Shown here: positions 4,991-32,663 of the stretch, one piece after another
Layout: each line of letters begins with the position of its first letter
How positions within the stretch are numbered: position 1 is the stretch's first letter
IMG/VR virus record: IMGVR_UViG_3300027963_000110
Span: 1 to 47,378 of that record
Reading direction: 5' to 3' (one strand)
Source of the DNA: a virus
DNA: 47,378 nucleotides
Made by a program: the position numbers and the translations under genes
Notes under the pieces: generated by a model
The model's database searches: none
Seen by the model: only the letters and a program-made list of their open reading frames with translations
What the model was told of the DNA's origin: nothing

Positions 4991-7900
4991 ATGCCAGAAT
5001 TTAAAATTGAACGCATACGTTTTAGATGGAGAGACTCTTGGTCTGCCACCACAGTGTACATCAAAGATGATGTGGTGCGTTTCGGAGCCAAAGTGTATGT
5101 GTGCTTGATAGCTCACACTGCCAATGCAAATTTTTACACAGATTTTGACAATGCCTCTCCCAAATGGAGTCAGATGTTGGATGGACAAAGCTGGACTGGT
5201 GATTGGACTCCCAGCACTTTCTACAAGATCAATGACATAGCCAAACTGGGTTCCACATTGTGGATCTGTTTGGAACCACACACCTCCAATGCAGATGCAG
5301 AAGATGCATTATCAGGTGATGAAGCCAAATGGACTGTGTTTGCAGAAGGTGAAAACTGGCGCGGTGATTGGACTCCCAGCACTGCATACATCAAAGGTGA
5401 TTTGATTCGTTATGGTGGAAGATTATATCTCTGCGCATTGTATCATGTGAGTGCCACAGCGTTGGAAGGATTGGAATTGGATCTACCCAACTGGACCTTG
5501 TACACAAGAAATTTAGATTACAAACTGGAATGGAATGTCAACACCAGATACCGATCAGATGAGTTGGTCAAGTATGGTGGCATAGTGTACAGAGTGATCA
5601 CAGGACATCAAAGTGCTGTGAGCAATGTGTATGTGAATCCCAACTTCACCACAGACAGTGTGGCTGGCATGGGTGCTGCTTTCAAAGTTTTTAGAGTGGG
5701 TGCTGTGTATCACGTGCAGTTCACCAACACTGGAATGGATTTCAGTGCGTCTGATCAGATCACTGTATTGGGCACACAGTTGGGTGGATTTGCACCCAGC
5801 AACAATCTCATAATCACTGCATTGTCAGTGGAGACAGATGGAGCCATCATAAATTATTCTGTCACAGGCACAGCAGAAATCACTGCAGATGGATTGGAAG
5901 CTGATTTTGGAAAATTTGAAACAGTGATTGACGGCATAGAATACAAAGGCGATTACACTCAATACACCAGATACAAAAAAAATGATATTGTGAAGTATGG
6001 TGGATCCAGTCTTTGGATCTGTATGGATGCAACGAATGTAGGTGTATTTGCTGACAGCGCAGTGCTGGATGAAAGCAAATGGGATATCTGGTTGCCTGGT
6101 TTGGGATTTGAAGCACTATGGAGTGCAACCACTTATTATCAACAGGGTGATGTGGTGATGTATGGCGGATACAGCTATGTGTGTTTGTTGAGCAACATAA
6201 ATGTACTGCCCACTGTGGCAGTTGACAGCAGCAGTGCTTGGGAATTAATGGTACCAGGTTATAACTTGAGAGGTGACTGGCAGGATGATGACAGCACAGC
6301 AACCACTCAGTACAAAACTGGTGACGTGGTGCGCAGCGGAGGTAATTTATACATTGCTGTGCGAGACAATGCAGGTGATCTACCACTGGAAGAAACTGCT
6401 TATGATCCTGGCACTGATTCACCTTATCCTTGGCAATTGTTGGTCACAGGTAAAAGATGGAGAGGACCTTGGTACGAGGTTGATCCCGTAACTCAACAGA
6501 ATAGATTTTATTATCCTGGTGACGTGGTCACTGTGGCAGGCACCACTTTTGCCTGTGTGGAATATCATGAAGCTGACATATCAGCTGCCAAACCCACTCT
6601 GGATTTGGAGAGTGAAGCTGTAGGACCTTTGTGGGTCAAATTAGCTCAAGGTGGCGTGGCCAATGTGTTGGAACATGTGGGAGATATCAAAACCATAGGT
6701 GACGACAGTGTGACCTTTGCTCTCAACATAGGAACTTCAGGAGAATCACTACAGATCACCAACAGCATACCAGACTGGAAACCACAAGATGTGATCACCA
6801 ACGTTTTCTATGTGTCCACAGAAGGTGTGAATGCACTGAACAGAGGAACCACATTGCAGACTGCATTTAGAACTGTGAAATATGCCTGTGATTTTGTGAA
6901 TGCTGACAAATTATCTCGAACACCGGCCACAATTTTTATCAAGACAGGAATTTATGAAGAAATATTGCCCATCAACGTGCCCTATGACACAGCATTAGTG
7001 GGAGATGAATTAAGAAGCACCAGCATCAGACCAGCTGAAGGTTATGAAGGATCCAACATGTTTTATGTGAACAATGGATCAGGCATAAGAAACATGAGTC
7101 TACAAGGACTGTATGGCACACTTGGAGCAAATAATCAATATCTAACCAAGAGACCCAGTGGTGGAGCATTTGTTTCTCTTAACCCTGGAAATTCTCCATC
7201 AGATACCACTGCATGGATCACTACTAAATCACCCTATGTGCAAAATGTCAGTACCTTTGGCACAGGTTGTGTGGGATTAAAAGTGGATGGAGATCTACAC
7301 AATGGTGGCAACAAATCAGTGGTGGCCAATGACTTCACACAGATTATTTCAGACGGTATAGGATTTTGGGTCAAAGGTGAAGGAAAATCAGAATTAGTTT
7401 CTGTGTTTACATACTACTGTCACATAGGATACTTGGCAGAAGACGGCGGCAAAGTGCGTGGAACCAACGGCAACAATTCATATGGTGCATATGGTGCTGT
7501 GGCAGAAGGTTTTTCTTTGGCAGAAACTCCCATCACTGCTGAAATAGACAATCAATCTGGAGAAGCATTGATCAACAGTGTGTACAACGATGAAAATCAG
7601 ATATTTTGTTTTGGATATTCACACACAGGTCAAGATTACACCAGCGCCACAGTGACCATCACAGGTTCAGGTGCAGGAGCAGCTGCCTTCATAGGTTATG
7701 ACAACACACGCTATCAGTCCATCAGCGAAGTGAGATTGACAGATCCTTTGGACAGCGGAATTACAGGAGGATTAGGTTACACCAACATACTGGGCAATGC
7801 TCAAGGTGGTGATGATAACAGCATACTGTTGGCTGCACAATATGAACCACAATATGAAAAACTTTTCACAGCCACCAGCGGAAACCCAGCCAACACCATC

Positions 7901-10375
7901 ACTGTGCAAAACATCACAGAAATGAATGTGAATGATGCAATTATTTTTCCAAGTTCGGCTTTTGGCAACATAGTGCCAGACACTGTGTACTATGTGAAAG
8001 AATTAGTGAATGCTGCCACCATAAGAATAAGTGAAACTCCTGGTGGTGCAGTGTTTGTGCTCACAGGAGCCACTGGTGTAGGATATTTTGTAGCGGGTAG
8101 AATAATAGGACAAAGAGTGCAAATCATAGAAGGCACAGGCAGAGGTCAGTACGGAGTGATATCCTACTATGACCATCCCAACAAAAGTATCAGCGTGGTG
8201 AGACAGTTTGATGGATTACCTGGTTTTGAACATCTTTTGGGAGGGTTGGCCATTGAACCTGTGTTGGATGGATCCACCAAATACAGCATTGAACCTTTGG
8301 CATCTTTTTCAGATCCCACATATTCTGTCAGCAACACCACACTGCCCATCAGTGCCACATGGGGAGTGGTAGGATCAGCGCGATTCGGCAGCACCAATGT
8401 CACTGTGGTACTCAGTGCCAGCGGTGGATATTTTACCACCAACGGCAGCACTTGGACAGCCTGCACAGGATTGGCTCCAGTGAATTATCTTTATACAGCT
8501 CGCAGCAGCACTCATTTATTGGCCATATCTACCAATGCTATATCCGGCACCACCACAGGATCCACTTGGACAGGATTAACCACTCCAGGAGGTTATGGTT
8601 CATTCACCAGCATCTCATGTGAACAGGATATTTTTATTATTACCACCAATCAGGGTTTTGTATTGAGATCCGCAGACAATGGAGTATCGTGGACTGCAGC
8701 AGAAGTAGCGCCTTATGATGGATCCACACCAGCGCTCACACATTCAGCCGGTGGATCAGGTCTGTTTATTGTGTGTGATGATCTGGGACAAACTTATGAA
8801 AGTCCCAATCTAGGTGTGAGTTGGTATCAAGGACCTGACATAGGCAGCACAGGAATAAATGTGAAGGACATTGTGTATGGCAACAATAGATTTGTGGCAG
8901 CTTGCAATGATAATCCCAATGACTCCAGCACATTGAGCAACAGATTTTATTACACACTGGCCAACCAGAGCACTGTGGCAGCATCTAACATCACTGTGTG
9001 GCAGCCCAGTGAATTACCACCAGAGTCAGATCAATATGTGATCAGTTACAGTCAAGGATGTTTTGTGGCTGTCACTGAATCAGGAGATCTTGCAGAAAGT
9101 ATTGACGGTAAGCATTGGAAAGTTTTAGGCACTCAGTTGCCCATCGGAGGTCCTGGAATTTTTGTACAAATCACTGGTGGATCAGTGAATGGTCCATGTT
9201 TTATTCCTTTGACTGATACAAGTACCAATCAGATCAAGGTGATCAGATATGGAGCAAGAGCTTTGGGTAGAATAAGAACTAATGCTGGAAGAATCAGTCA
9301 GATTGAATTGATAGAACCAGGCAGTGGATATTCAATCGCACCTACCATCACAGTGGTGGATAATGAAAATGTTATTGATGCTCTTTATTCCGTGAGAACC
9401 AACAATGGTACCATAAGTCAACCCACATTTACCAACAGAGGCACAGGATTTTTAAACGTGAGTGCCACAGTTAGCGGCGATGGATTGGCTGACAAATATC
9501 AAACAGGAAAATTTTTAACAATTAAAAATTTATCTAGATTGCCCAGCCCAGGTGACAATGTGGAATTTGCTAACATTCCCAACTCACTGTTTAAATTGGG
9601 TAATTTTGTTCAATTGGGTGGTGTAGAACCTAATATTTTCGGCACATTAAGAGTGAGTCCAGGAGTGGATGCTTTCTTGTCACCAGGTCATAATGAGTCA
9701 ATCACCATCAGACAAAATTACAGTCAGGTTAGATTGACAGGTCATGATTTTTTAGACATCGGCACAGGTAATAAATTCACAACCAATTATCCAGATCTTT
9801 ACAAAACAGGATTCACTGCAGGTTATGAACCTGCACAATTCAATGAAGTGGTTGAGTCAGGTGGAGGACGTGTGTTCTACACCAGCACAGATCAAAATGG
9901 TAACTTCCGAGTGGGAGAACAATTCAGAGTGGAACAGAACACTGGTATTGTGACATTAAGTGCAGATTTCTTCACACTGGATGGTCTGACTGAATTGGCT
10001 CTGGGTGGAGTGGTATTGGGTGGATCAGGAGCAGTGATACGTGAATTCAGCATAGATGCCACCATGGCAGCCAACAGTGACAACATAGTACCCACACAGA
10101 AAGCAATCATAGCTTACATACAAAGTAGAATTTCAGGTGGTGGATCCTCTTTGAACGTGTCTATTCTAAGGGCAGGTGCCATACAGATACAAAATGACTT
10201 CATATTTAATGTGGGTGGAGAGCCTATACAGATAAATTCACCGGTGAATTTCAAGGCAGGAATCAAAGGATCCATGCTGGCATTGAATTATTTCTTGGGT
10301 GGAGTAGCTTCCACAGAGCTCAACGAAGGTGATGCTGTGAGTGGGATAGACACCAGCAATGGATATGGTAGTTAG
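4991..10375 (+). CDS. Giant tail fibre/tailspike-like protein, CBM repeats plus beta-helix (1794 aa)
   Basis: Modular virion protein. Residues about 10-560 hold eight repeats of the W....Y..(G/N)D.V.YGG..Y.C...H type, resembling CBM5/12 carbohydrate-binding modules, with one beta module (GAAFKVFRVGAVY...) inserted near residue 220. Residues about 600-850 look like a pectate-lyase-type parallel beta-helix (TAFRTVKYA, IFIKTGIYEEILPI, VGDELRSTSIRP, GLKVDGDLHNGGN). About 1115-1390 carry Asp-box/BNR-like turns (NGSTWTA, ADNGVSWTA, SPNLGVSWY). The C-terminus has ESGGGRVFYTSTDQNGNFRVG and NSDNIVPTQKAI, a block shared with the 2006-aa neighbour. Likely role: receptor or surface-glycan binding. Depolymerase activity is possible, but no catalytic residues can be assigned. 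The start lies 1 base after the previous stop. Confidence 0.75.
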   Translation: MPEFKIERIRFRWRDSWSATTVYIKDDVVRFGAKVYVCLIAHTANANFYTDFDNASPKWSQMLDGQSWTGDWTPSTFYKINDIAKLGSTLWICLEPHTSNADAEDALSGDEAKWTVFAEGENWRGDWTPSTAYIKGDLIRYGGRLYLCALYHVSATALEGLELDLPNWTLYTRNLDYKLEWNVNTRYRSDELVKYGGIVYRVITGHQSAVSNVYVNPNFTTDSVAGMGAAFKVFRVGAVYHVQFTNTGMDFSASDQITVLGTQLGGFAPSNNLIITALSVETDGAIINYSVTGTAEITADGLEADFGKFETVIDGIEYKGDYTQYTRYKKNDIVKYGGSSLWICMDATNVGVFADSAVLDESKWDIWLPGLGFEALWSATTYYQQGDVVMYGGYSYVCLLSNINVLPTVAVDSSSAWELMVPGYNLRGDWQDDDSTATTQYKTGDVVRSGGNLYIAVRDNAGDLPLEETAYDPGTDSPYPWQLLVTGKRWRGPWYEVDPVTQQNRFYYPGDVVTVAGTTFACVEYHEADISAAKPTLDLESEAVGPLWVKLAQGGVANVLEHVGDIKTIGDDSVTFALNIGTSGESLQITNSIPDWKPQDVITNVFYVSTEGVNALNRGTTLQTAFRTVKYACDFVNADKLSRTPATIFIKTGIYEEILPINVPYDTALVGDELRSTSIRPAEGYEGSNMFYVNNGSGIRNMSLQGLYGTLGANNQYLTKRPSGGAFVSLNPGNSPSDTTAWITTKSPYVQNVSTFGTGCVGLKVDGDLHNGGNKSVVANDFTQIISDGIGFWVKGEGKSELVSVFTYYCHIGYLAEDGGKVRGTNGNNSYGAYGAVAEGFSLAETPITAEIDNQSGEALINSVYNDENQIFCFGYSHTGQDYTSATVTITGSGAGAAAFIGYDNTRYQSISEVRLTDPLDSGITGGLGYTNILGNAQGGDDNSILLAAQYEPQYEKLFTATSGNPANTITVQNITEMNVNDAIIFPSSAFGNIVPDTVYYVKELVNAATIRISETPGGAVFVLTGATGVGYFVAGRIIGQRVQIIEGTGRGQYGVISYYDHPNKSISVVRQFDGLPGFEHLLGGLAIEPVLDGSTKYSIEPLASFSDPTYSVSNTTLPISATWGVVGSARFGSTNVTVVLSASGGYFTTNGSTWTACTGLAPVNYLYTARSSTHLLAISTNAISGTTTGSTWTGLTTPGGYGSFTSISCEQDIFIITTNQGFVLRSADNGVSWTAAEVAPYDGSTPALTHSAGGSGLFIVCDDLGQTYESPNLGVSWYQGPDIGSTGINVKDIVYGNNRFVAACNDNPNDSSTLSNRFYYTLANQSTVAASNITVWQPSELPPESDQYVISYSQGCFVAVTESGDLAESIDGKHWKVLGTQLPIGGPGIFVQITGGSVNGPCFIPLTDTSTNQIKVIRYGARALGRIRTNAGRISQIELIEPGSGYSIAPTITVVDNENVIDALYSVRTNNGTISQPTFTNRGTGFLNVSATVSGDGLADKYQTGKFLTIKNLSRLPSPGDNVEFANIPNSLFKLGNFVQLGGVEPNIFGTLRVSPGVDAFLSPGHNESITIRQNYSQVRLTGHDFLDIGTGNKFTTNYPDLYKTGFTAGYEPAQFNEVVESGGGRVFYTSTDQNGNFRVGEQFRVEQNTGIVTLSADFFTLDGLTELALGGVVLGGSGAVIREFSIDATMAANSDNIVPTQKAIIAYIQSRISGGGSSLNVSILRAGAIQIQNDFIFNVGGEPIQINSPVNFKAGIKGSMLALNYFLGGVASTELNEGDAVSGIDTSNGYGS
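5015..6640 (+). repeat. Eight CBM5/12-like coding repeats in the 1794-aa protein
   Basis: Eight units with the core W/Y-x-x-x-T-x-Y-x-x-x-D-x-V-x-x-G-G. Examples are WSATTVYIKDDVVRFGAKVY, WTPSTAYIKGDLIRYGGRLY and WSATTYYQQGDVVMYGGYSY. Spacing is uneven because one different beta module is inserted between units 4 and 5. Confidence 0.7.
7226..7470 (+). repeat. Dispersed DNA-level repeat shared by the two giant proteins, copy 1
   Basis: This stretch of the beta-helix region is closely similar at base level to 13791-14040. Both encode KSPYVQNVSTFGTGCVGLKVDG, ANDFTQI, SDGIGFWV and HIGYLAE. It indicates gene duplication or exchange between the giant genes. Confidence 0.7.
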
Positions 10376-10411: not shown

Positions 10412-13400
10412 ATGGCTGAGTTTAAATTAGGTAGGATTAGGTTCATTTGGAAAGGTGCCTGGATCACTGCCGTTGAGTATTTTATCGATGATGTGATAAG
10501 ATATGGTGGCCGTACCTATATCTGCGTGGTGGGACACACCAGCGGTACTTTTCAAACAGATTTAACTGCTGCAAAATGGAACCTGATGAGTGATGGTCAG
10601 GAGTGGAAAGCCAACTGGTCTTTGAACACCACATATAAACCCAATGACATTGTGAAATATGGTGGGTATTTGTACATTGCCAACGAAGGACACACTTCAG
10701 CTGCCACAACCACTTTGGGATTGGAAGCAGATCAATCCAAATGGGATTTATTTTCAGAAGGATTTGATTACAAATCAGATTGGGCAATCAGTACCAGATA
10801 CAAAGTAAATGATTTAGTCAAGTACGGTGCATACATCTACACCTGTATCACTGCACACACATCAGCTGCCACCACCACTTTAGGTTTGGAAAATGATATT
10901 GGCAACTGGGAAGTTTTCTCCAAAGGATTCAATTGGTTGAATGCTTGGGCTACCACTACCAGATACAAATTGGGAGACGTGGTCAGATACGGTGGACAAC
11001 TGTACGTGGCCAACCTAGGACACACTTCAAATGCATCAGCCACACTGTTGGGTGGTGGATTGGAAGCGGATCAAGCCAAGTGGGATTATCTACACAAAGG
11101 TATTGAATATAAATCAGATTGGGCAGGTACCACCAGATACAAAATCAATGATGTGGTCAAGTGGGGACCAAGTCTTTGGATCTGTACCACTTATCACGTT
11201 TCTACTGCCACACTCACTGCAGATCAAGCCAACTGGGCTGTGTTTGTACCAGGATTAGAATTTGAAGATTCATGGAGTTCCGCAACCAACTATCAGATAG
11301 GTGACTTTGTGACCTATGGTGGTTATGGTTACGTGGCCAAGACCAATAGTTTGAATAAAAACCCCAACACCTATGCAGGTGTGGATTGGGATCTATTTGT
11401 AACAGGATTCCGTCTAAGAGGTGATTACAACAACGGCACTGCATATCTCAATGGTGATGTGGTACGCTTGGGAGGATTCACTTATATCTGTATTGAAGAC
11501 AGCACAGGCAACAGACCACCCAATGTGACCTACTGGGACAAACTCAACGAAGGAATCTATTGGAAAGGCAACTGGGCCAATGCCACTCTGTATGACAAAG
11601 GTGATGTGGTACGAGGAATTATTAATACCAACAATTCATATATTTGTATACTGGCTCACACTTCCAACAACGTGGGACCTGCCACAATCACACAACCAGA
11701 TTATGCACCAGGAGCTGGAGTGGACACTGGCACATATTGGCAACTATTATCGGGAGGTGCAGAAAGCACAGCACTGACCACACAAGGAGATTTATTATTG
11801 TACGGACCATCAGGTCCTACTAGATTACCAATTGGACTTTCAGGTCAAACATTATTGGTGAACTCTGCAGGCACGCTGCCTGAATGGGGTTACTTTGGAA
11901 AGATTGACAATGTATGGTACGTGGCTCTATCAGGTGTGGATGCACCAGCTCCAGACTACGGTGCCACATTGAACCAACCTTGGAGAACCATTCAATATGC
12001 TCTTAAAGAAATAGACAAAGGACCGTTGTATCCTAAAGCAAAAAATTTATTAGTGAGAAACAAAGCATTCATACAGAGAGAAACTGTGGCCTACATAAAT
12101 GCCACGTTCCAAGCCACTTGTACCAACACCACCACAAGCACCAATCTAATCACCTGCAACAGCACTGTGAATCTTAGAGTGGGCATGAGAGTGGAATTCA
12201 CTGGCACCACATTTGGCGGAGTAAGCACTGTGACTGAATATTATATCATCACTAAAACATCTACGCAGATCAGTGTGAGTCTCACACCCACAGGTTCAGC
12301 AGTTGCACTCAGCACCGCTGCAGGAACTATGGTGGTAAAATTAAAATATGACAGTGCCAAATGTCTAAGAGATATAGGACAAATCATTGATGCTGTGCAA
12401 TGGGATTTGAGTCATGGTGGCAATGAGAAATCAAGATTGGCTGCTATTTCTTATTACACAGGCAGCGGATCATATGTGTATGGTCAGGAAACAGAGACCA
12501 GTGCTGCTATTGAATTTGCCAAGACCGTGATTGATGCTGCCATTTCCAATGACGCAGCTTATGTAGAATTGCAAGCGGTTGTGTCACAAGTGATTGACAA
12601 CGATATTATGGAAGAACCTCAAGCACAAGGTTTGATAGAATCATTAATGGACATCATCATAGATGCAATCACAGCAGGCGATGTAGATGATGTGCCAGCT
12701 GAGATTATTGCCGGCAACACTGTGAATGTGAAGACAGGAATATTTTATGAAGTATTGCCCATACGTGTGCGCGAAAGCACAGCCATTGTGGGAGATGAGT
12801 TGAGAAGCACCAACATCAGACCTGCTCCCAGCTATGTAAATATTTCAGACACTCCATACACATTGCTAGGCATTGACAGATTAGAAAATATCATTGATGA
12901 TATTATTACCAACACTCCTGTATCAGCCACAGCAGCTGGATATGTCACATCAGTGTCCACACCAGTACAAGATGTCAACAGAACTTCTGGAGTATACACC
13001 AACAGAACAGTGACTGGTGGAACAGGCAGTGGCGCAACATTTAATGTCACTGTGAATGCCACAGGTTTCGTAACTCTAATCACTGTGAACACTTCAGGCA
13101 CAGGCTACACAGTGGGCAACACTCTTACCATAGCATCAGGACAATTGGGAGTCAGCAGTTTGGCTGCCACTTTCACTGTGAGCACTGTGGGCGCCGGCAA
13201 CACTATTACACAAAATGTGAGTGCTCCAGCAGGATCTGCTCCAGCAGCAGCCGCAGCAGTGAGCATTGTGGAAGACATTTATGATTATATCAACTACAAT
13301 GTGATTGGTGACAGTTCCAGTCCCGAGCCCACTGTGAGTGGTTCTAATCTGCCTCAGACTGCAATTGGTTACACAGATGCTGTGTTGAGATTGATTGAAA

Positions 13401-16400
13401 ATAGAGAATTTTTAGCCACTGAAGTGGTGGAATACACCAAAAAAACCAATCCTGGTGCTTTCCTTACATATTTCACAGCAGACAACGAGTTGTCTTGCAA
13501 AAGAGATGTGAGAGAATATGTGGATGCAGTGGCCCATGATTTGATCTACACCGGCAATTACAAAGCCATCGTGGCTGCCAAGTATTATGAAACTGCTGTG
13601 ACCGGCAGTGTGGCTTCGGACATGTTCTACATGAGAAACGGCACAGGATTAAGAAACTGCACACTGCAAGGATTGACAGGCTCATTGGGTGCTGCTAACG
13701 CCTACGGCACACAGAGACCCACTGCTGGAGCCTACGTATCATTGGATGCAGGTTGGGGACCATCACATGAAGATGTGTGGATCACTAACAAATCACCCTA
13801 TGTGCAAAACGTATCCACATTCGGCACAGGTTGTGTGGGATTAAAAGTGGATGGCGCACTGCACAACGGTGGAAATGATTCAGTGGTGGCCAATGACTTC
13901 ACACAAATTTTATCAGATGGTATCGGATTCTGGGTGACCAACCTAGGTAGATCAGAATTAGTTTCTGTGTTCAGTTACTACAATCACATTGGATACCTAG
14001 CTGAAAATGGTGGCAAAGTGCGTGCTACCAACGGTAATAACTCATATGGAAAATTTGGATCAGTGTCTGAAGGTGGAGATGCTTCAGAAGTTCCAGTCAC
14101 ATGCGTGGTCAACAACAAAAGCACAGATGCCACAGTGGGAAATACTTTCACAGATGGTGATAGAATATTGGCTTTGGAGTATACCAATGCTGGAACCAAT
14201 TACACCACAGCAGCCACACTGACCATATCAGGAGATGGTTTTGGTCTTGCTGGTACCACTGCCACAGTGCGCAACGGTGCTGTGTATGAAATTAGATTAG
14301 ATGAAACTGTCACATCACCTGAGAGCAACTATGGTGGTGATGGATATATCACAGCCAGCAACGTGTCTCAAAACGGCACTGATAAAACTATCACTATTTC
14401 CAACACTGACACATCATTGGCCAGTCAGTTGACCGGATTATCCATATACATCACTGAAGGATTAGGAGCAGGACAGTATGCTTACGTGGTGGGATTCAAT
14501 GCAGGTACCAAGGTTGTCAAAGTGGCCCGACCTTCATTCACATCATTCACAGTCACAGCTGCCACAGCGTCAAATGATAGATTCACTTGTGCTAGCAGCA
14601 GCACATTAGACATTAACATGCCCATCATGTTCAGCGGCACAGCATTTGGTGGAGTGACCACCACTGCTACCAATCCAACCATTTACTATGTGTTGAGCAA
14701 GCCCACTGGAACCACATTCACTATCAGTACCACACCAGGTGGATCAACTTTTGATGTCTCGGCTGATGCTGTAGGCACCATGACCATACACAAAGCAGGT
14801 TGGGATCATTTGGTTAACACCACTTGTACCAACACCACAGTGAGCACAGATGTGATCACCTGTGCATCCACTGCAGGATTGTATGTGGGTGCAGCAGTGC
14901 AGTTTGATGGCACCACATTTGGTGGCATAAATCCATACACTCAATACTATGTGATCAGCACAGGATTCACAGCAACACAATTCAAAGTCAGCACTTCTTT
15001 GGGCGGCGCAGCAGTCACGCTCAGCACTGCTGCAGGCACCATGAGTGTGAGATTGGTAGAAGTTATATTAGACGGTACCACCAAGTATGACTATGCTCCA
15101 CGCATTATTGTGAGTGCTCCTCCTTCAGGTATCACAACCATTGCCAGAGCAGTGGTCACAGCAGAAAAAATATCTGCCATTAGAATTATTGAACCAGGTT
15201 CAGGCTATGTGACGGCTCCTACAGTGACCATAGTGGATCCCAGCAACACAGTGGAAGCACCTGTGGAAGTTTTCATTGGCAATGGAGCTTTGGGTCAACC
15301 CACATTCACCAACAGAGGATTATCATTTTTGACAGCCGTAACCACAGTGACCGAAACAGGCGTGGTACGCACTGTGAGTGGCATCACCAATGCCAACCCA
15401 GGAGTGGTCACAACTTCAACCAACCACACTTACACCAGTGGACAAAAAGTTATTTTTGCAAACGTGGCTGGCATGTTCCAAATCAACAGCGGAGTGTACT
15501 ACTATGTGAATGTGTTGACTCCAACCACTTTTTCATTGTATGTGGATTCAGCACTGACTGTGCCTTTGAACACCACTGACTACGGAGTTTACATTGCTTC
15601 ATTGGGCACTGTGACAGAATTTGGCGGATTTAGAAACAGTCTACAGAATGGCAAATTCATACAAGTGGAAGGATTGACGCAAATTCCACAGGCAGGAGCC
15701 AATGTAGAATTTGCTTCATTGCCAGGCAACTATTACAAACTGGTAACTGTGCAGAATCTATTGGGCACACAGTATCCATTCACTGCACTGTTGCAAGTGA
15801 GCCCACAGATAGAAGTGTCAGAAGCACCACCGCATGGTGATCCTGTCACAATTAAAATTAGATATTCGCAAATCAGATTAACAGGTCACGATTTCTTAGA
15901 CATAGGTACAGGTGGTTTTACTAGCACAAACTATCCTGGCATACCTTTAACTCCTGCTGATCCAGACAACGAGACTGTGGAATCAGGTGGAGGACGTGTG
16001 TTCTTTACCAGCACAGATCAAGACGGTAACTTCCGAGTGGGAGATTTATTCTCAGTGGAGCAGAGCACAGGTGTGGCCACATTGAATGCTGATGCGTTCA
16101 ATATTTCAGGATTACAAGAACTTCAGTTGGGTGAATTAGTATTGGGAGGCAGCAGTGCTTCTATCAATGAATTCTCCACAGATGGTACAATGGCAGCCAA
16201 CAGTGACCAAATTGTGCCCACACAGAGAGCGATTAGAACATATATAGCTAGTCAAATCGGTGGTGGAGCCAGCAGTTTGAACGTGAACCAAATCACAGCA
16301 GGTTTGATCACAATATTTGCTTCAACCATTGAGACCACCACTGGAGTGACAATAAACTTTGAATCCCCTGTGAATTTCACAGCAGGAGTTAACGGAGCGC

Positions 16401-16432
16401 CCGTAGCAATGGGGCTTTTCCTACAAGGATAA
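10412..16432 (+). CDS. Giant tail fibre/tailspike-like protein, paralogue (2006 aa)
   Basis: Paralogue of the preceding giant, starting with the same motif (EFKLGRIRF against EFKIERIRF). Residues about 10-450 hold eight CBM5/12-like repeats. About 510-800 and again 1000-1070 contain a helical module, (K)CxRD....DAV..DL..GGN, also seen at the N-terminus of the 2146-aa protein. Beta-helix motifs follow (GDELRSTNIRPAP near 794, GLKVDGALHNGGN near 1142, TNGNNSYG). Three copies of a beta module with FxG(T)xFGG are inserted near 575, 1385 and 1475. The C-terminus, from about 1856, repeats ESGGGRVFFTSTDQDGNFRVG and NSDQIVPTQRAI. It is probably a second surface-binding fibre or an alternative receptor binder. 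The start is supported by a late promoter element and an AAGGA site. Confidence 0.75.
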   Translation: MAEFKLGRIRFIWKGAWITAVEYFIDDVIRYGGRTYICVVGHTSGTFQTDLTAAKWNLMSDGQEWKANWSLNTTYKPNDIVKYGGYLYIANEGHTSAATTTLGLEADQSKWDLFSEGFDYKSDWAISTRYKVNDLVKYGAYIYTCITAHTSAATTTLGLENDIGNWEVFSKGFNWLNAWATTTRYKLGDVVRYGGQLYVANLGHTSNASATLLGGGLEADQAKWDYLHKGIEYKSDWAGTTRYKINDVVKWGPSLWICTTYHVSTATLTADQANWAVFVPGLEFEDSWSSATNYQIGDFVTYGGYGYVAKTNSLNKNPNTYAGVDWDLFVTGFRLRGDYNNGTAYLNGDVVRLGGFTYICIEDSTGNRPPNVTYWDKLNEGIYWKGNWANATLYDKGDVVRGIINTNNSYICILAHTSNNVGPATITQPDYAPGAGVDTGTYWQLLSGGAESTALTTQGDLLLYGPSGPTRLPIGLSGQTLLVNSAGTLPEWGYFGKIDNVWYVALSGVDAPAPDYGATLNQPWRTIQYALKEIDKGPLYPKAKNLLVRNKAFIQRETVAYINATFQATCTNTTTSTNLITCNSTVNLRVGMRVEFTGTTFGGVSTVTEYYIITKTSTQISVSLTPTGSAVALSTAAGTMVVKLKYDSAKCLRDIGQIIDAVQWDLSHGGNEKSRLAAISYYTGSGSYVYGQETETSAAIEFAKTVIDAAISNDAAYVELQAVVSQVIDNDIMEEPQAQGLIESLMDIIIDAITAGDVDDVPAEIIAGNTVNVKTGIFYEVLPIRVRESTAIVGDELRSTNIRPAPSYVNISDTPYTLLGIDRLENIIDDIITNTPVSATAAGYVTSVSTPVQDVNRTSGVYTNRTVTGGTGSGATFNVTVNATGFVTLITVNTSGTGYTVGNTLTIASGQLGVSSLAATFTVSTVGAGNTITQNVSAPAGSAPAAAAAVSIVEDIYDYINYNVIGDSSSPEPTVSGSNLPQTAIGYTDAVLRLIENREFLATEVVEYTKKTNPGAFLTYFTADNELSCKRDVREYVDAVAHDLIYTGNYKAIVAAKYYETAVTGSVASDMFYMRNGTGLRNCTLQGLTGSLGAANAYGTQRPTAGAYVSLDAGWGPSHEDVWITNKSPYVQNVSTFGTGCVGLKVDGALHNGGNDSVVANDFTQILSDGIGFWVTNLGRSELVSVFSYYNHIGYLAENGGKVRATNGNNSYGKFGSVSEGGDASEVPVTCVVNNKSTDATVGNTFTDGDRILALEYTNAGTNYTTAATLTISGDGFGLAGTTATVRNGAVYEIRLDETVTSPESNYGGDGYITASNVSQNGTDKTITISNTDTSLASQLTGLSIYITEGLGAGQYAYVVGFNAGTKVVKVARPSFTSFTVTAATASNDRFTCASSSTLDINMPIMFSGTAFGGVTTTATNPTIYYVLSKPTGTTFTISTTPGGSTFDVSADAVGTMTIHKAGWDHLVNTTCTNTTVSTDVITCASTAGLYVGAAVQFDGTTFGGINPYTQYYVISTGFTATQFKVSTSLGGAAVTLSTAAGTMSVRLVEVILDGTTKYDYAPRIIVSAPPSGITTIARAVVTAEKISAIRIIEPGSGYVTAPTVTIVDPSNTVEAPVEVFIGNGALGQPTFTNRGLSFLTAVTTVTETGVVRTVSGITNANPGVVTTSTNHTYTSGQKVIFANVAGMFQINSGVYYYVNVLTPTTFSLYVDSALTVPLNTTDYGVYIASLGTVTEFGGFRNSLQNGKFIQVEGLTQIPQAGANVEFASLPGNYYKLVTVQNLLGTQYPFTALLQVSPQIEVSEAPPHGDPVTIKIRYSQIRLTGHDFLDIGTGGFTSTNYPGIPLTPADPDNETVESGGGRVFFTSTDQDGNFRVGDLFSVEQSTGVATLNADAFNISGLQELQLGELVLGGSSASINEFSTDGTMAANSDQIVPTQRAIRTYIASQIGGGASSLNVNQITAGLITIFASTIETTTGVTINFESPVNFTAGVNGAPVAMGLFLQG
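10440..11700 (+). repeat. Eight CBM5/12-like coding repeats in the 2006-aa protein
   Basis: Eight units such as WSLNTTYKPNDIVKYGGYLY, WATTTRYKLGDVVRYGGQLY and WANATLYDKGDVVR, most followed by xxGHTS or xxAHTS. They are more regular than in the 1794-aa paralogue, suggesting recent unit duplication. Confidence 0.75.
13791..14040 (+). repeat. Dispersed DNA-level repeat shared by the two giant proteins, copy 2
   Basis: Partner of 7226-7470. It has the same reading frame and mostly third-position differences. Confidence 0.7.
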
Positions 16433-16460: not shown

Positions 16461-16781
16461 ATGGCAACAGGAAGATTGGGAGCGTCGGATTTAACCGCAG
16501 CTGCCTTAACAACAGTATATACCTGTCCAGCTGATACGTTTGCAATAGTTGCTGTAAACTTCCTAAATCGAGGCAATCAAGCTCAAACTTTTAGATTGGC
16601 TGTGGCTACCACAGCTACTCCTACAGTGGGTGAGTACATTGAATACGATGTGGAAGTGCTGTCCAAAGGAGTTCTAGAAAGAACTGGTTTGGTATTGGCA
16701 GCAACACAAAGATTAGTGGCATACGCATCGGGTGGCAACGCTAGCGTGGTGGTTTACGGCATTGAAACATCAACTGCATAA
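16461..16781 (+). CDS. Small virion protein of the VYTCPADTFAIVAVNFLNRG type
   Basis: 106 aa, all-beta. The pattern LTTVYTCPADTFAIVAVNFLNRGNQAQTFRLAV matches small phage virion proteins in which a T.VYTVP...A.VNV...NRG....RLA pattern recurs. It has a good ribosome site (AAGGAG, about 10 nt upstream) but no TAAATA element, so it is probably co-transcribed with the 2006-aa gene. Likely a small fibre-tip or decoration subunit. Exact role unknown. Confidence 0.65.
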   Translation: MATGRLGASDLTAAALTTVYTCPADTFAIVAVNFLNRGNQAQTFRLAVATTATPTVGEYIEYDVEVLSKGVLERTGLVLAATQRLVAYASGGNASVVVYGIETSTA

Positions 16782-16825: not shown

Positions 16826-17158
16826 ATGGGAAGATACATATCAACAACCGGAACCGCTGGTATAGTTATACGTGAAGTTAGTACAACGTATCAAGCAGTT
16901 GTGAATGATAGAATTTTGGCTAACTCTGCAGCAGCAGCCTTCACTATCACTTTGCCACTGAGCACTGGACTGTTGAACAATGACACCATTCAAATCATAG
17001 ACGTTGGCAACTTAGCAGGAACCAACAACATCACTGTGGCTAGAAACGGTGCACTGATCAACGGAGCAGCTGACAATTTAACAATTGACTTGAATCAAGC
17101 AATTGTGACTTTGATTTATACAGGCGTAACTTATGGTTGGATTGTTGCCGCAGTGTAA
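16826..17158 (+). CDS. Small beta-module fibre protein
   Basis: 110 aa. The pattern NSAAAAFTITLPLSTGLLNNDTI, then NNITVARNGALINGAADNLT, and a closing LIYTGVTYGWIV is the well-known small beta module found at the ends of many phage tail fibres. Here it is a stand-alone protein. Probably a trimeric fibre or tip subunit. A late element and a TAAGGA site precede it. No enzymatic motif. Confidence 0.65.
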   Translation: MGRYISTTGTAGIVIREVSTTYQAVVNDRILANSAAAAFTITLPLSTGLLNNDTIQIIDVGNLAGTNNITVARNGALINGAADNLTIDLNQAIVTLIYTGVTYGWIVAAV

Positions 17159-17207: not shown

Positions 17208-18179
17208 ATGGCAAGTTTGAAAAACCTTACGGCAACCAAGAACAACAACTTTCCACAAGTGACGGAAACCAATGTGGAATCTGGTCAGATATATAATTTT
17301 CAAGCCAACAATTTTGAATCACTGCACGCAGGCATTTGTTTTCATCCCTGTCAATCAGGCACAGCAATAATTGAGATATGGGGCGCAGGTGGCTCTGGAG
17401 CCAAAATGTGCTGTTGTGGATTTGGTACTCCTGGTAACCCAGGCGCATACAGTAAAAAAACAGTCACTCTCACATGCTGCGGATATATCACAGGATCACC
17501 AGGCATAGCCTGCGGCAATGATGCACTGTGTTTCAGAGGCTGTTCAGATGCCACTGGAGTGACCATTTATGCCAATGGCAGCAGCACAGGTTGTATGTGT
17601 GCTCAAGGTGGCCGAGGCGGAATTTCTTATTGCAGCACAGGCACAGATGCCTACTGTTGTTTCACAGCAGGCGGTTTTTATACCACTTTGGGAGTGAACG
17701 GCAACTGCGGCATAGTGTGCAACAAATGTTGTTCAGGTGGATGGTGCGCACTGGCATATGGTGGAGACTTCAACTGTCCAGGCGGATTCAGTTGTGTGAG
17801 TTTCCTAGGAGCTTCAGGATCATCTTGTCCATGCAGCACACATTTTCACATGCAAGGACCAGCAGGATATTTTTCCAAATGCGGAGTGGTGGTGAGTTTC
17901 AATTCAGATGACGGCAATGGTTTTGCCAACTGGTCAGGACAAGGCCGAAGTCAATATTCTCAAGCACTGGCAGGAGCCAGCAGATGGCCTCAGATGGGAT
18001 CACATTTTGCTACCTGTTGGGGATTTTCAGGAGCTTGTGGATGTTATGAAAATGAAGGCTGCATGAATCTATTGCCTCCAGGATTTCCGTCGGCAGGACC
18101 ACATCCATGTCCAGGTGTGAGAGATCATGCCAGCAAAGGTGGCAATGGTGCCATCAGAATTAAATTTATAGCAGGATAA
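17208..18179 (+). CDS. Cysteine-rich glycine-rich virion protein, copy 1
   Basis: 323 aa with 30 cysteines by direct count, including CCC (residues about 68-70), GCMC, CPC and CGC clusters. Its WGAGGSGAKMCCCGFG start resembles the Gly-rich (VxVWGAGGGG) domain of phage tail proteins, but with Cys patterned through it. The C-terminus HPCPGVRDHxxxGGxGAIRIKF is conserved in all three tandem copies. There is no signal peptide or membrane segment. The spacing could support either extensive disulfides outside the cell or bound metal. The flanking fibre genes suggest an adhesin. It is the first of three tightly packed genes. I recognise no named family. Confidence 0.7.
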   Translation: MASLKNLTATKNNNFPQVTETNVESGQIYNFQANNFESLHAGICFHPCQSGTAIIEIWGAGGSGAKMCCCGFGTPGNPGAYSKKTVTLTCCGYITGSPGIACGNDALCFRGCSDATGVTIYANGSSTGCMCAQGGRGGISYCSTGTDAYCCFTAGGFYTTLGVNGNCGIVCNKCCSGGWCALAYGGDFNCPGGFSCVSFLGASGSSCPCSTHFHMQGPAGYFSKCGVVVSFNSDDGNGFANWSGQGRSQYSQALAGASRWPQMGSHFATCWGFSGACGCYENEGCMNLLPPGFPSAGPHPCPGVRDHASKGGNGAIRIKFIAG

Positions 18180-18184
18180 ACATT

Positions 18185-19186
18185 ATGGCCACACTGAGAT
18201 CATTATTAGAAACCAAACTGTCGTTCCAGTTGAACGGTTTAGAAAGCAACACTGAAGAAGGTAGAATTTGGGCCTACACTCCAGGCACCACAGTGGGCAC
18301 CAACTTCTGTTGTGGTGTGTGTTGGATATCACCAGGCACAGGCACAGCCACCATTGAGATATGGGGTGCAGGTGGTTCTGGAGCCAAAATGTGCTGCTGC
18401 GGATTCGGATTGCCTGGCAATCCAGGTGCTTATTCTTCAAGAACAGTCAACGTCACCATAGGCTGTTGTATCAGAGGCAACGTGGGATTATCCTGCGGTA
18501 ACTCAGACGATTTATGTTACAGAGGTAGATCAGAAAGCACAGGAGTGTGCTGGCAGGGCAATGGCACCAATGGTTGTATGTGTGCAGAAGGTGGTCAAGG
18601 TGGCTACAGCTATTGTTCTACCACTCCATCAGCCTATTGCTGCTTTGGAGCCAACGGATTTTGCAACACCAAAACCGCTGGTGAAAACTGCGGAATAATT
18701 TGCAACTACAGAGGCGCAGGTTGTGCTGTGCATGAAGCTCAAGGATACGGCGGCACCTGCAACATGGCAGCTGGATTCAGTTGTGTGAGTTTCTTTGGAT
18801 GCTTGCCATCATGTCCATGTTCATTTTGGTATCACACCAGAACACCACCCAAGATGTATGCAGACTGTGGAGCATGGATCACCTACACCAATGATGTGGA
18901 CAATGGAGCCTACAACTGGAGCGGTGGCGCTCAGTATGGTTACATACACACATTAGGACTTACTTCGCGCAATCCCACCATGGGCGGTCACTATACATCC
19001 TGTTGGAGTGGTGGTCATAGATATTGCGGTTGCTACAACATGAATGGTTGCATAGCATTTGTGCCACCAGGTCATGCAGGAGCACCACCACATCCATGTC
19101 CAGATGTGAGAGATCATGCCTACCGAGGTGGACATGGTATAATTAGGATTAAATACGTGGGAACAGGATATTTGGGGTTAAACTAA
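18185..19186 (+). CDS. Cysteine-rich glycine-rich virion protein, copy 2
   Basis: 333 aa with 31 cysteines by direct count. It aligns along its length with copy 1: EIWGAGGSGAKMCCCGFGLP, LCYRG, GCMCAEGGQGGYSYCST, NCGIICN, CVSFFG...CPC, CGCYNMNGC, HPCPDVRDH. The N-terminal 40 residues are divergent and there is a short extra C-terminal tail (GTGYLGLN). It starts 5 bases after the previous stop, and its TAA overlaps the next ATG (TAATG at 19184-19188), so the copies are translationally coupled. An adhesin role is inferred. Confidence 0.7.
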   Translation: MATLRSLLETKLSFQLNGLESNTEEGRIWAYTPGTTVGTNFCCGVCWISPGTGTATIEIWGAGGSGAKMCCCGFGLPGNPGAYSSRTVNVTIGCCIRGNVGLSCGNSDDLCYRGRSESTGVCWQGNGTNGCMCAEGGQGGYSYCSTTPSAYCCFGANGFCNTKTAGENCGIICNYRGAGCAVHEAQGYGGTCNMAAGFSCVSFFGCLPSCPCSFWYHTRTPPKMYADCGAWITYTNDVDNGAYNWSGGAQYGYIHTLGLTSRNPTMGGHYTSCWSGGHRYCGCYNMNGCIAFVPPGHAGAPPHPCPDVRDHAYRGGHGIIRIKYVGTGYLGLN

Positions 19187-20148
19187 TGGCTGGATTAAAA
19201 AGTATATTATCATCAAAAGTATCATACACAATAACTGAGAACAACCTTGAACAGGGTGTGATCTATGCATTCTCACCCGGCACATTCTACACCAATTACT
19301 GCAACGGCTTCTGTTGGAAACCACCAGCCACAGGTTGTGCCATTGTGGAGATATGGGGTGCTGGTGGCTCAGGATCTCGTATGTGTTGTTGTGGTGGAGG
19401 ACTGCCCGGCAATGCAGGTGGATATTCAAGAAAAAGCATAGCAGTGACCACTGCCAACTTTGTGTGTGGCTGTGTGGGCTTTCCCAGATATTCTCATGAT
19501 TTATGTTTTTCAGGTTGCGGTGATCCCAGCACAGTGTGTTGGACCAGCACTTCTTCCAATGGTTGCTTGTGTGCCAGAGGTGGCCGAGGTGGCACCAGTT
19601 TCTGCAGCACTGGTACCAGCATGTTCTGTTGCTACAGAGCCAACGGATTTTGTAGTTTTGGACCCATCAACGACAACTGCGGCATTGTGTGCAATCATTG
19701 TTCAGGTGGTTGGGAATCACTGGCATACGGTGGTGACATCAACTGCTGCGGCACCATAGGTTGTACATCATTTTTAGGTTGCTATCCCACATGTCCTTGT
19801 CAAACACATCATCATGCTCCTCTGCCAGCCTACATATTTGCAGAAAAAGGCGCTAGAGTGAGTTTTCAAACATCAGACGGACAAGCCAACACAAGTGGTA
19901 TGTCAGGCAGTCAGCTGCCTGCTTATCTACAATCACTGGCAGCACTCAGCAAACAGCCTACCAGAGGCACTTTCAACTCCTATTGTTGGGTATCAAACAG
20001 ATCCTGCGGATGTTATGAGATGCAAGGATGTTCACCATTTTTACCCATAGGCGCAGGTGGTCTACCTCCACAACCTTGTCCAGATGTGAGAGATCATGGA
20101 ATCAGAGGCGGCTGGGGTGGCATGCGTATCAGATTTATAGCAAGTTAA
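19186..20148 (+). CDS. Cysteine-rich glycine-rich virion protein, copy 3
   Basis: 320 aa with 31 cysteines by direct count. It has the same scaffold as copies 1 and 2 (EIWGAGGSGSRMCCCGGGLP, GCLCARGGRGGTSFCST, NCGIVCN, CPCQTHHH, CGCYEMQGC, PQPCPDVRDHG, GGMRIRFIA). Copies differ mainly in the first 40 residues and in a central variable stretch (about 210-265), as expected if those parts face partners or receptors. A His cluster (THHHA) after CPC could add metal ligands. A tail adhesin function is inferred from position. Confidence 0.7.
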   Translation: MAGLKSILSSKVSYTITENNLEQGVIYAFSPGTFYTNYCNGFCWKPPATGCAIVEIWGAGGSGSRMCCCGGGLPGNAGGYSRKSIAVTTANFVCGCVGFPRYSHDLCFSGCGDPSTVCWTSTSSNGCLCARGGRGGTSFCSTGTSMFCCYRANGFCSFGPINDNCGIVCNHCSGGWESLAYGGDINCCGTIGCTSFLGCYPTCPCQTHHHAPLPAYIFAEKGARVSFQTSDGQANTSGMSGSQLPAYLQSLAALSKQPTRGTFNSYCWVSNRSCGCYEMQGCSPFLPIGAGGLPPQPCPDVRDHGIRGGWGGMRIRFIAS

Positions 20149-20193: not shown

Positions 20194-20847
20194 ATGATAA
20201 ACAAAAATTTCACAATACCTTTGGCAGATGAGCCATATCTAGATACCACCACACAGAATAAAACATACCCTGCCACCTACACAGGCCCAAGATATTTAAA
20301 AGTGTGTGTGGATAAAGAAACCAAAATAGTGGAAAGATATGTGGCTGGTGCTGACACCATGGATGGCCTAAGTGCAATCATCGCTATTGAAGAAGCTGAA
20401 AAAATGTATCAAATTTTAAATGCAGAAACACACACATTTGAAGCTGCTTATCTCACAGGCATGTACACCACCGGACCAGTGGAGAATTATACAGAAACAC
20501 TGCCAACCAAAGATGCTGAAGGAGTGGATGAAACTTTTGAATATGTTTGGAACGACAACACAGGAATGATTTCACAACAGTATTACAACATAGATTTAAA
20601 ATTTGTAAACGGAGCATATGTAAGACCTAGATTTAGAACTCATGCACTGACCAGAGCAAGTTTTTTAGCCAGTTTGGTTGTGCAGGCCACAGCAATTGAA
20701 GCTGCCATTGAAAGCAACGAAACACTGTCTGATGCAGACATTGCCCAACTGGAAACCTATGTGACCTGGTTGAGAAATGTACCTACCAAATATGCAAATG
20801 TCAAGCATTGGAAAATTCCATTCAAAATCACAGTACCAATTTACTAG
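20194..20847 (+). CDS. Conserved fibre-region protein, possible fibre assembly factor
   Basis: 217 aa, mixed alpha/beta, no transmembrane segment. The C-terminal third is helical (LASLVVQATAIEAAIESNE, then DADIAQLETYVTWLRNVPTKY), like the Y..WLR.... ending of many tail-fibre assembly chaperones. The N-terminal half has strands such as YLKVCVDKETKIVERYV. It sits directly after the three Cys-rich proteins and has its own late element, so it may help fold or attach them. The chaperone idea rests on weak pattern resemblance only. It could equally be a structural subunit. Confidence 0.6.
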   Translation: MINKNFTIPLADEPYLDTTTQNKTYPATYTGPRYLKVCVDKETKIVERYVAGADTMDGLSAIIAIEEAEKMYQILNAETHTFEAAYLTGMYTTGPVENYTETLPTKDAEGVDETFEYVWNDNTGMISQQYYNIDLKFVNGAYVRPRFRTHALTRASFLASLVVQATAIEAAIESNETLSDADIAQLETYVTWLRNVPTKYANVKHWKIPFKITVPIY

Positions 20848-20918: not shown

Positions 20919-21863
20919 ATGAATAGATCCAAAGCATTTTTTTTAAACGGAGGTATTGGCCGAATTTTGTGTGCTATTCCTGCACTGGAAAAATACGCAG
21001 AAGAATCGGGCGATAAAGATTTTTTAGTCATTTGCGAAGGAGCTGTGGACATACTCAAAGGTCATCCCATACTGGATCAAAAAACCTACGATATTTTTCA
21101 TAAAAATTTATTTCATTCTAAATTACAATCCAGAGAAATAGTAAGTTTGGAGCCTTATAGAGTTTGGGAATATTACAATCAAAAATGCAATCTATCTCAG
21201 GCTTTTGATATATTGATCAACGCCAAAGGAGTGAGGTCATTGCCCAAACCCACCATCCATCTCAGCAAGGAAGAAACTGCTCAAGGACAAAAATTGATGG
21301 AAGAAATCAAAGCAAAAATTAAAAAAGATAAAGCCATTGTGTTTCAACCATTTGGCAGAGGCGTAGAGCACATGGATAAAACTCTTTTGGATAAAACTGG
21401 ACGCAGTTTTGAATACAAAGATGTTAAGAACTTGATACGAAAACTACAAAAAGAAAACTTTGCAGTGATACTGATGTCAGAATTTGGCATGGATCTTAAG
21501 GATCAAAAATACACAGATGATGTGGCCATGCCCGAAGGATTGAATCTAAGAGTGTGGACAGCACTGATCAAACAAGCTGATCATTTCTTAGGCTGTGACA
21601 GTGTGGGTCAGCACTTGGCCTACATAGTAGGCACCACTTCCACTGTGGTATTGGGACCTACCTATCCCGTCAATACCACTTATCCCGATTGTGACTATTT
21701 TAACATAATGGATATGGGAGAAATAGATAGGGAGTATGATCCAATTAGAATCACCATGGACGAAAGAATTGCTAGAAAAAATGAAATATTGATGTCTATG
21801 AACGAAGAGATTGAAGACTATGTGATCAACGGAGTAATGAGAAGAAATCAAGATGACAAGTAA
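20919..21863 (+). CDS. GT9 (heptosyltransferase-like) glycosyltransferase, copy 1
   Basis: 314 aa, GT-B-like layout. An N-terminal Rossmann start (AFFLNGGIGRILCAIPALE) is followed by FLVICEG and KGHP. The C-terminal half has IVFQPFGRG (about 140-148) and HFLGCDSVGQHLAYIVG near 221-237, followed by TTSTVVLGPTYP. The last block matches the donor-site pattern of GT9 heptosyltransferases (a Ser/Asp region, HLA, then GPT near ADP-heptose). It is paralogous along its full length to the gene at 23669. It overlaps the carbamoyltransferase gene by 11 bases, so they are one operon. Acceptor unknown. Donor ADP-heptose is suggested by the HldE/HldD genes elsewhere in the window. No strong ribosome site is visible. 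Confidence 0.65.
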   Translation: MNRSKAFFLNGGIGRILCAIPALEKYAEESGDKDFLVICEGAVDILKGHPILDQKTYDIFHKNLFHSKLQSREIVSLEPYRVWEYYNQKCNLSQAFDILINAKGVRSLPKPTIHLSKEETAQGQKLMEEIKAKIKKDKAIVFQPFGRGVEHMDKTLLDKTGRSFEYKDVKNLIRKLQKENFAVILMSEFGMDLKDQKYTDDVAMPEGLNLRVWTALIKQADHFLGCDSVGQHLAYIVGTTSTVVLGPTYPVNTTYPDCDYFNIMDMGEIDREYDPIRITMDERIARKNEILMSMNEEIEDYVINGVMRRNQDDK

Positions 21864-23667: not shown

Positions 23668-23668
23668 T

Positions 23669-24619
23669 ATGAACAAAGCATTTTTTATTAACGGAGGAGC
23701 AGGTAGAACATTGTGTTCAGTGCCAGCACTAGAAAATTATGCCAACGATAATCCCAATGATGATTTTATTATTGTGTGTGAAGGTGGCACTGATTTCTAC
23801 AAAGGACATCCTAAATTACATTTTAGAGCGTATGATGTTTGGCACAAGAATCTATTCAATGAATACTTAAAAGATAGACAACTGATAACTCCTGAACCAT
23901 ACAGGGTTTGGGAATACTACAATCAAAAATGTAATATTGCACAAGCATATGACATAGAGATTAATGGCAAAGGACTACGCACATTAGAAAAACCCAAAAT
24001 TTATCTTTCCAAAGAAGAACTGATCATGGCAAGACAGATGATTAAAGAAATAAAAGAAACCACTAAAAAAGAAAAAATAGTAGTGTTTCAACCTTTTGGT
24101 AGAGTATCTAAAAAAGACAACGATAGTTTTATAGATGTGAGTGGTAGAAGTTTTGAATTGGAAAACATTATCAATCTAATTAGACAGTTGGGCAAACAAT
24201 ATGCTGTGATGGTGATGTCAGAATTTCCCATAGATTTTAGTAAACATCAGATAAATTTTCCAGTGGCTGTGCCTCAGAATATACATATAAGAATTTGGAG
24301 TGCTGTGATAAAAATGTGTGATCATTTCTTAGGCTGTGACAGTTTGGGCCAACATCTTGCACATGCTTTTGACAAAACAGCCACAGTGGTATTTGGTTCA
24401 ACATTTCCCAATAATGTTTCTTATCCAGACAATAATAAATTTGATATCATTGACATGAACAAAGACAGTAGAATTTACAGTCCTATACGCATAACCATGG
24501 ATGAATATGCTGACAGAGCCAATGAAGATGCTATGAAAATGGACAAAGAAGTGGAAAATAGAATTATGCAATCTGTCAACAGCATGATCAAACACGGCTA
24601 CAAAAAGAATAAAAAATAA
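23669..24619 (+). CDS. GT9 (heptosyltransferase-like) glycosyltransferase, copy 2
   Basis: 316 aa, paralogue of the gene at 20919. Shared blocks are AFFINGGAGRTLCSVPALE, FIIVCEGG, YRVWEYYNQKCN, VVFQPFGR, DVSGRSFE and DHFLGCDSLGQHLAH, then a GSTFP turn and RITMDE near the C-terminus. It starts 1 base after the carbamoyltransferase stop. It differs from copy 1 in the donor-loop residues (VFGSTFPNN against VLGPTYPVN), so the two may use different acceptors or donors. The Lys-rich C-terminus (KHGYKKNKK) is unusual. The GT9 assignment is by motif pattern. Confidence 0.65.
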   Translation: MNKAFFINGGAGRTLCSVPALENYANDNPNDDFIIVCEGGTDFYKGHPKLHFRAYDVWHKNLFNEYLKDRQLITPEPYRVWEYYNQKCNIAQAYDIEINGKGLRTLEKPKIYLSKEELIMARQMIKEIKETTKKEKIVVFQPFGRVSKKDNDSFIDVSGRSFELENIINLIRQLGKQYAVMVMSEFPIDFSKHQINFPVAVPQNIHIRIWSAVIKMCDHFLGCDSLGQHLAHAFDKTATVVFGSTFPNNVSYPDNNKFDIIDMNKDSRIYSPIRITMDEYADRANEDAMKMDKEVENRIMQSVNSMIKHGYKKNKK

Positions 24620-32290: not shown

Positions 32291-32663
32291 CAGTTTTTTG
32301 ACTGTCACCAGGCACTATTCTATAATTGTCTTCCACGCTGTCTGCAGTGGAAACTTCTGTGATTGAACTGTTGTCCAACACAGCTTCCAATTGATGAGGT
32401 TGTAGAGGAGGATTGTGCCAAGTTTGACCTTCGCTTAATTCCTTCTGATATATTTTAGCATCCTTGGTGTCTATCCAACGCACTAAAAATTTTCCAGAAT
32501 TCACAAACCAAGTTTCCTCTTTGTGTTTGTGAAAATGCAGTGAACACTTGTTGCCTGCTTTGGTAAACACTAAAATTTTTCCACAGTAATTGTCATTGGT
32601 GGCCCATATTAATTCATAACCCCAACCTTTGTCTATTTTGCCTTCTTGTCTATTCACGGTCAT
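32259..32663 (-). CDS. Cupin, phosphomannose-isomerase type II-like sugar enzyme
   Basis: 134 aa, a single cupin barrel. Motif 1 is intact: G37-x5-H43-x-H45-x4-E50-x6-G57 (LHFHKHKEETWFVNSG). Motif 2 has NPPLQPHQ with H90. The opening DKGWGYELIW is like the K-P-W-G-Y-E start of type II mannose-6-phosphate isomerase cupins. The likely role is isomerising or epimerising a sugar phosphate or nucleotide sugar. Its start overlaps the end of the HldD-like gene by 14 bases, so it is the last gene of the minus operon. The substrate is unknown, and a metal-binding role in sugar synthesis is inferred from neighbours. Confidence 0.7.
   Translation of the reverse strand: MTVNRQEGKIDKGWGYELIWATNDNYCGKILVFTKAGNKCSLHFHKHKEETWFVNSGKFLVRWIDTKDAKIYQKELSEGQTWHNPPLQPHQLEAVLDNSSITEVSTADSVEDNYRIVPGDSQKTVTPELHPIAK

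Follow-up and report, generated by a model that had tools for sequence, protein, structure and literature searches.

Three tandem cysteine-rich glycine-loop proteins as probable receptor-binding tips of a T4-like tail fibre

The tail fibre of cyanophage Pam3 (gp24, PDB 7YPX) is trimeric and combines a helical N-terminus with a TNF-like domain and six glycine-rich loops; the ends of these loops vary and are proposed to recognize the host, and the fibre is folded by the chaperone gp25 (PMC9608196). In Salmonella phage S16 the adhesin tip gp38 (PDB 6F45; via PMC9608196) is likewise a glycine-rich loop bundle, which ends a T4-like long tail fibre, and an extracellular domain of glycine-rich type is present in the receptor ALK/LTK. 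Sequence families related to the proteins considered here are Gly_rich_2 of Pfam (PF21722), an ordinary representative of which is Syn9 gp38, with 2 Cys in 266 aa, and phrog_4205, a PHROG of unknown function that includes proteins of the cyanophages S-CAM1, S-CAM3, S-SSM7 and P-SSM2.

The window analyzed comprises 47,378 nucleotides, positions 1 to 47,378 of the IMG/VR virus record IMGVR_UViG_3300027963_000110. Three genes in tandem on its + strand, at 17208..18179, 18185..19186 and 19186..20148, encode proteins of 323, 333 and 320 aa with 30, 31 and 31 Cys, respectively (hereafter tips 1, 2 and 3); re-counting gave the same lengths and Cys numbers as a first-pass annotation of this DNA. Cysteine accounts for 9.3–9.7% of their residues, by direct count about 15-fold more than in the remaining genes of the window. 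Since the latter, when pooled, contain 83 Cys in 13,910 residues (0.60%), about 2 would be expected in a protein of this size, and the excess per tip corresponds to a binomial P of 1e-25 to 1e-27. Alignment of tips 1–3 showed the WGAGGSG start, the CCC, CxC and CC clusters and the PCPxVRDHxxxGG end at the same aligned places, as had been described. Tips 2 and 3 are 48–50% identical to tip 1, and identity between the copies is lowest at residues 1–40 (28–49%), 81–120 (33–50%) and 201–240 (33–41%), in rough agreement with the first-pass annotation, which had placed the divergence mainly in the N-terminal 40 residues and in a central segment. The gap between the genes of tips 1 and 2 is 5 bases, and the reported overlap of copies 2 and 3 was confirmed, the stop of tip 2 and the start of tip 3 sharing TAATG at 19184-19188.

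The three proteins matched phrog_4205 over most of their length (E 3e-11, 5e-6 and 2e-9 for tips 1, 2 and 3), as did 43 of the 43 diverse members of set A2. A direct search of the window tips against Pfam gave no match at E<=1, Gly_rich_2 included. The curated cut-off of this family (24.3 bits) was passed by copy 3 of S-CAM1 (40.4 bits), copy 3 of S-CAM3 (33.9 bits) and tip 1 of S-SSM7 (24.9 bits), in matches spanning nearly the whole model; an iterated profile joined all members from cultured phages to the window tips with E below 1e-25, and Syn9 gp38 aligned to the tip-family profile over the first glycine loops. The link of the window tips to Gly_rich_2 depends on these intermediates and on the predicted fold. 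The framework in common with the family runs from the strand EIWGAGG as far as GxxRI, the C-terminal strand, but in the tips the Gly runs are interrupted by Cys-rich segments, and the window proteins fall below detection. With the cyanophage proteins of phrog_4205 they have in common the sequence family, a Cys content of 8–12%, size, gene order and, usually, three tandem copies, whereas identity to the window tips is only about 19–27%.

Relatives in cultured phages were reached through tip 2 and the neighbouring genes, tblastn of tip 1 in phage records having given no match. The carriers, S-CAM1, S-CAM3, S-SSM7/S-SSM6a, Sf-FS3 and P-SSM2/P-SSM5, are all T4-like cyanophages; their copies contain 24–36 Cys each, and in the records examined they are annotated as hypothetical. 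Among viral contigs, 22 loci were detected with tip 1 as a query; an alignment query then matched at 252 places, from which 79 loci were retained, and a search with an S-CAM3 protein added 25. An alignment of the full family was also tried as a locus query and dropped as too diverse.

AlphaFold models were obtained for tip 1 (27 homologues; pLDDT 71.9) and tip 3 (85 homologues; pLDDT 81.5, pTM 0.80). When compared with the PDB using Foldseek, the matches that stood out for both models were the Pam3 tail fibre, the Bxb1 tail tip and the ALK/LTK glycine-rich domain. The Pam3 fibre was matched by the two models with E 6e-5 to 1e-4, probability 1.00 and TM-scores of 0.37–0.50, and was the best PDB match of tip 1 (E 6e-5); overall, TM-scores were modest (0.3–0.5), which points to the same architecture and not to a close copy. 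Among viral structure models, an S-CAM3 protein was the top match, followed by many phage proteins with glycine-rich domains and by Syn9 gp38. A profile search of PDB sequences produced no credible match. Tips 1–3 are not orphans; most likely they belong to a known adhesin fold, as a branch rich in cysteine. They resemble Pam3 gp24 in the predicted TNF-like and glycine-rich-loop fold, in having a probable chaperone gene nearby and in the probable host-binding role; unlike them, gp24 is a single homotrimer that constitutes the whole fibre, whereas the tips would be three paralogues on a long fibre, and the Pam3 paper (PMC9608196) makes no mention of Cys or disulfides. The likeness to S16 gp38 lies in a glycine-rich loop bundle ending a T4-like long fibre; no direct match between them was found, however, and the literature examined does not call S16 gp38 Cys-rich. 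The match to ALK/LTK concerns another extracellular domain, but that of an animal receptor, and is limited to architecture. Placement in a well-described family with known function, which by the first-pass annotation would count against its reading, applies by half: the fold family proved to be a known one, but the PHROG is of unknown function. As far as could be searched, the literature contained no description of Cys-rich phage tips or hetero-trimeric fibres, and to that extent the Cys-rich branch of the fold is undescribed.

The tip genes lie in a tail-fibre region, in which the genes listed between 4991 and 20847 are all on the + strand. Two large tail-fibre proteins precede them, one of 1794 aa (4991..10375; phrog_9851 tail fiber protein, E 3e-189) and one of 2006 aa directly upstream of the cassette (10412..16432; phrog_9851, E 7e-201), the latter with eight stretches of the carbohydrate-binding module CBM_5_12. 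These are followed by a small tail-fibre-associated protein of 106 aa (16461..16781; phrog_11338 tail fiber protein, E 1e-7), with counterparts of 48–52% identity at the same place in P-SSM2, S-CAM1 and S-CAM3, and by a protein of 110 aa resembling pieces of tail spikes and fibres (16826..17158; phrog_31104, phrog_4302, phrog_9648 tail protein). Downstream of tip 3 lies a gene for a protein of 217 aa (20194..20847; phrog_9740, E 4e-6). This protein itself matched no Pfam family, Phage_tail_APC (PF16778) included, yet its phrog_9740 relatives in S-SSM7 and Sf-FS3 hit Phage_tail_APC above the cut-off, with 38.4 and 42.6 bits, and it is on this account a probable tail-fibre assembly chaperone. 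In the 63 loci compared, its homologue was located 3' of tip 3, mostly within 6–54 bases, and the 106-aa protein 5' of tip 1 at a spacing wide enough for the 110-aa gene. The order in cyanophages is similar, with a long tail fibre, small proteins, Cys-rich tips and a fibre-assembly chaperone (S-CAM1, S-CAM3, P-SSM2, S-SSM7 and Sf-FS3). P-SSM2 differs in that the two tip genes have between them, and not after them, a gene for a 225-aa protein (PSSM2_305; L027:8382-9059) that matches the chaperone PHROG weakly. The record also encodes a T4-type baseplate wedge, fibre connector, gp15 sheath stabiliser and sheath C-terminus, with gp19 matched below cut-off only; judging from this gene content, it is a T4-like (contractile) virion module. 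Gene order, fold and the probable chaperone give good support to virion adhesins, as proposed in the first-pass annotation.

Conservation of the cysteines was assessed in 129 window-type homologues, which contain 28–37 Cys, mostly 30–33. Cys showed the highest mean conservation of any residue, Cys and Gly being the two most conserved, and 16 of 28 Cys-consensus columns were invariant. The variance of total Cys was 0.42 of the summed column variances, the lowest of all residues, indicating that losses are compensated. With 16 invariant positions, and a count that stays close to 31 although several other positions move, the cysteines are under selection, both in number and at most positions. Paired changes were detected at positions 158/202 (r 0.89) and 162/203 (r 0.63; tip 1 numbering), each pair depending on one or two independent events. 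Parity of the Cys count was considered as a sign of full pairing and rejected, there being no excess of even numbers: the count was even in 47% of homologues and the triplet sum in 57%. It follows from these figures that not every Cys can be in an intramolecular disulfide, so by these counts some must be free, inter-subunit or metal-bound. A phage-encoded Erv/Alr thiol oxidase gave no match, in a search whose controls were silent too, and glutaredoxin, over cut-off in 2 of 19 related records, was too inconsistent to support a dedicated redox partner.

Exactly three tandem copies were present in 57 of 73 non-redundant loci, and most of the others end at contig edges. Three copies are not obligatory, however: true deviations are the L101 and L103 type, with one copy in another genomic setting, and L102 and the P-SSM2 type, with two. 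In a tree, nearly all window-type copies 1, 2 and 3 fell into three separate clades, the copy-3 clade being weak in a smaller tree, so that each position is orthologous across phages. Triplets of the S-CAM type and of the S-SSM7 type likewise formed three clades each, apart from the window type, and a joint clade of window and S-CAM copies 1 was rejected (p-AU 6e-51; test on copy 1). On these phylogenies the triplet appears to have arisen several times or to have been homogenised within each of three lineages; separate triplications are to be read with the caveat that one old triplication followed by gene conversion is possible and that long branches are in play. Either history suggests that the three copies act together. 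Co-evolution was tight among the tips (r 0.95–0.97), less so between the tips and the chaperone or small protein (0.85–0.91), and the rates of the tips were nearly equal.

Tips 1–3 probably act as receptor-binding tip adhesins in which Cys has a structural role, and the virion-tip location together with the glycine-rich fold, as deduced from sequence, model and gene order, is held with high confidence. In a T4-like myovirus they would be the distal, receptor-binding subunits on the long tail fibre. As in the trimeric Pam3 fibre, each would begin with a short helix, continue with a beta-sandwich of TNF type and carry extended glycine-rich loops as a bundle at the distal end; the downstream 217-aa protein would assist folding. 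About 31 Cys per chain would occupy many positions in and around the loops and, on balance, are likely to form disulfides, which would join neighbouring loops covalently once the virion leaves the reducing host cytoplasm and yield a rigid, durable tip with variation confined to some segments. The disulfide cage put forward by the first-pass annotation is accordingly plausible: strong selection on Cys, the constancy of its number and the two co-changing pairs speak for it, whereas the lack of an even-count excess does not. In the simplest mechanical reading, the trimer would contain one each of tips 1, 2 and 3, which is suggested tentatively. That all of these hold at once, i.e. a hetero-trimeric receptor-binding tip made of three paralogous, heavily disulfide-cross-linked glycine-loop proteins, with several lineages having each gone from one ancestral gene to three subunits on their own, is rather unlikely.

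The three proteins could instead form independent homotrimeric tips, used as alternative or parallel adhesins for different receptors or fibres, with Cys loops that merely stiffen each of them; this is a real possibility, if not a probable one. The fibre region of the window contains three very large ORFs (1794, 2006 and 2146 aa), the copies diverge most at the three segments named above, and the single-copy relatives L101 and L103 imply that a homotrimer can work. However, a single three-gene set is flanked by one fibre gene and one chaperone gene, in an order fixed in 63 loci, while in arrays of adhesins that serve to broaden host range, free turnover of members would be expected, and the tighter mutual co-evolution of the tips also argues against separate assemblies.

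Other readings concern the cysteines themselves. The needle of T4 gp37 binds iron, and the first-pass annotation had envisaged a metal-loaded tip, in which the CxC, CC and CCC clusters and the conserved His would bind zinc, copper or iron in place of forming disulfides. The CCC, CMC, CPC and CGC clusters and the VRDH motif are indeed highly conserved, and even Cys counts are not preferred. Nevertheless, regular CxxC or HxH ligand sets are lacking: HxH occurs in copies 1 and 3 (HFH, HHH) and is absent at that place in copy 2, unlike the repeated HxH of the T4 gp37 type, and no sequence match to any metal-binding family was obtained. Moreover, cross-links account better than fixed ligand sets for a Cys number that is kept up by compensation while the positions move. 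Little positive evidence was thus found for metal loading, which is unlikely. It is improbable, too, that Cys serves mainly as a small packing side chain, replacing Gly, Ala or Ser within the loop bundle, with no cross-links. This would agree with the presumed synthesis of the tips in a reducing cytoplasm and with Cys and Gly being the most conserved residues, but should allow Ser or Ala at Cys sites, at odds with the 16 invariant columns, and the ordinary relative Syn9 gp38 manages with 2 Cys.

As receptor-binding adhesins, the tips would probably decide host entry for a common group of aquatic T4-like phages. A tip with 9–12% Cys made in a reducing cytoplasm raises the question of when and how cross-linking happens, and a hetero-trimer, if true, would depart from the usual pattern of phage fibre tips, in which the three subunits are identical, and would allow three binding surfaces to vary separately. 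Both questions are testable in the cultured carriers S-CAM1, S-CAM3 and P-SSM2. New here are the conserved three-copy state, the position-wise orthology and the apparently separate triplet origin or homogenisation in three lineages.

With regard to hosts, the psbA family gave no match in 19 related records, some of them over 350 kb, and a cyanobacterial host is on that basis unsupported for the window-type branch. Window-type triplets on two viral records without psbA-family match, of 364 and 353 kb (L088 and L108), indicate that such tips also occur in very large phages. A search of genome contigs returned one match, a 15-kb contig of a Euryarchaeota MAG (L112; PAOW01000006.1) that encodes two complete tips and part of a third, all clustering with copies from viral contigs; it is probably a phage contig binned by mistake. 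Virion proteomes have been reported or cited for S-SM1, S-PM2 and Syn9 (PMC3037559); these phages gave no tip match by tblastn, so their proteomes are silent on the tips either way.

In the syntenic slot of Marine virus AG-345-P14 (L032:5117-5962), a protein of 282 aa with 26 Cys had no match to the tip family, Pfam or PHROGs, and may be a fibre tip of other descent in which a high Cys content arose independently. The 2146-aa ORF of the window (25850-32290), which had no Pfam match, adjoins fibre and sugar genes and may be another fibre protein. The sugar genes, located near the tips at 20919-24619 and 32650-34724, encode a Nol-like carbamoyltransferase, an epimerase, two related proteins of unknown function (one matching phrog_8954) and a PfkB-cytidylyltransferase fusion resembling enzymes of heptose synthesis. 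In cyanophages, too, the tips are followed by a similar sugar island.
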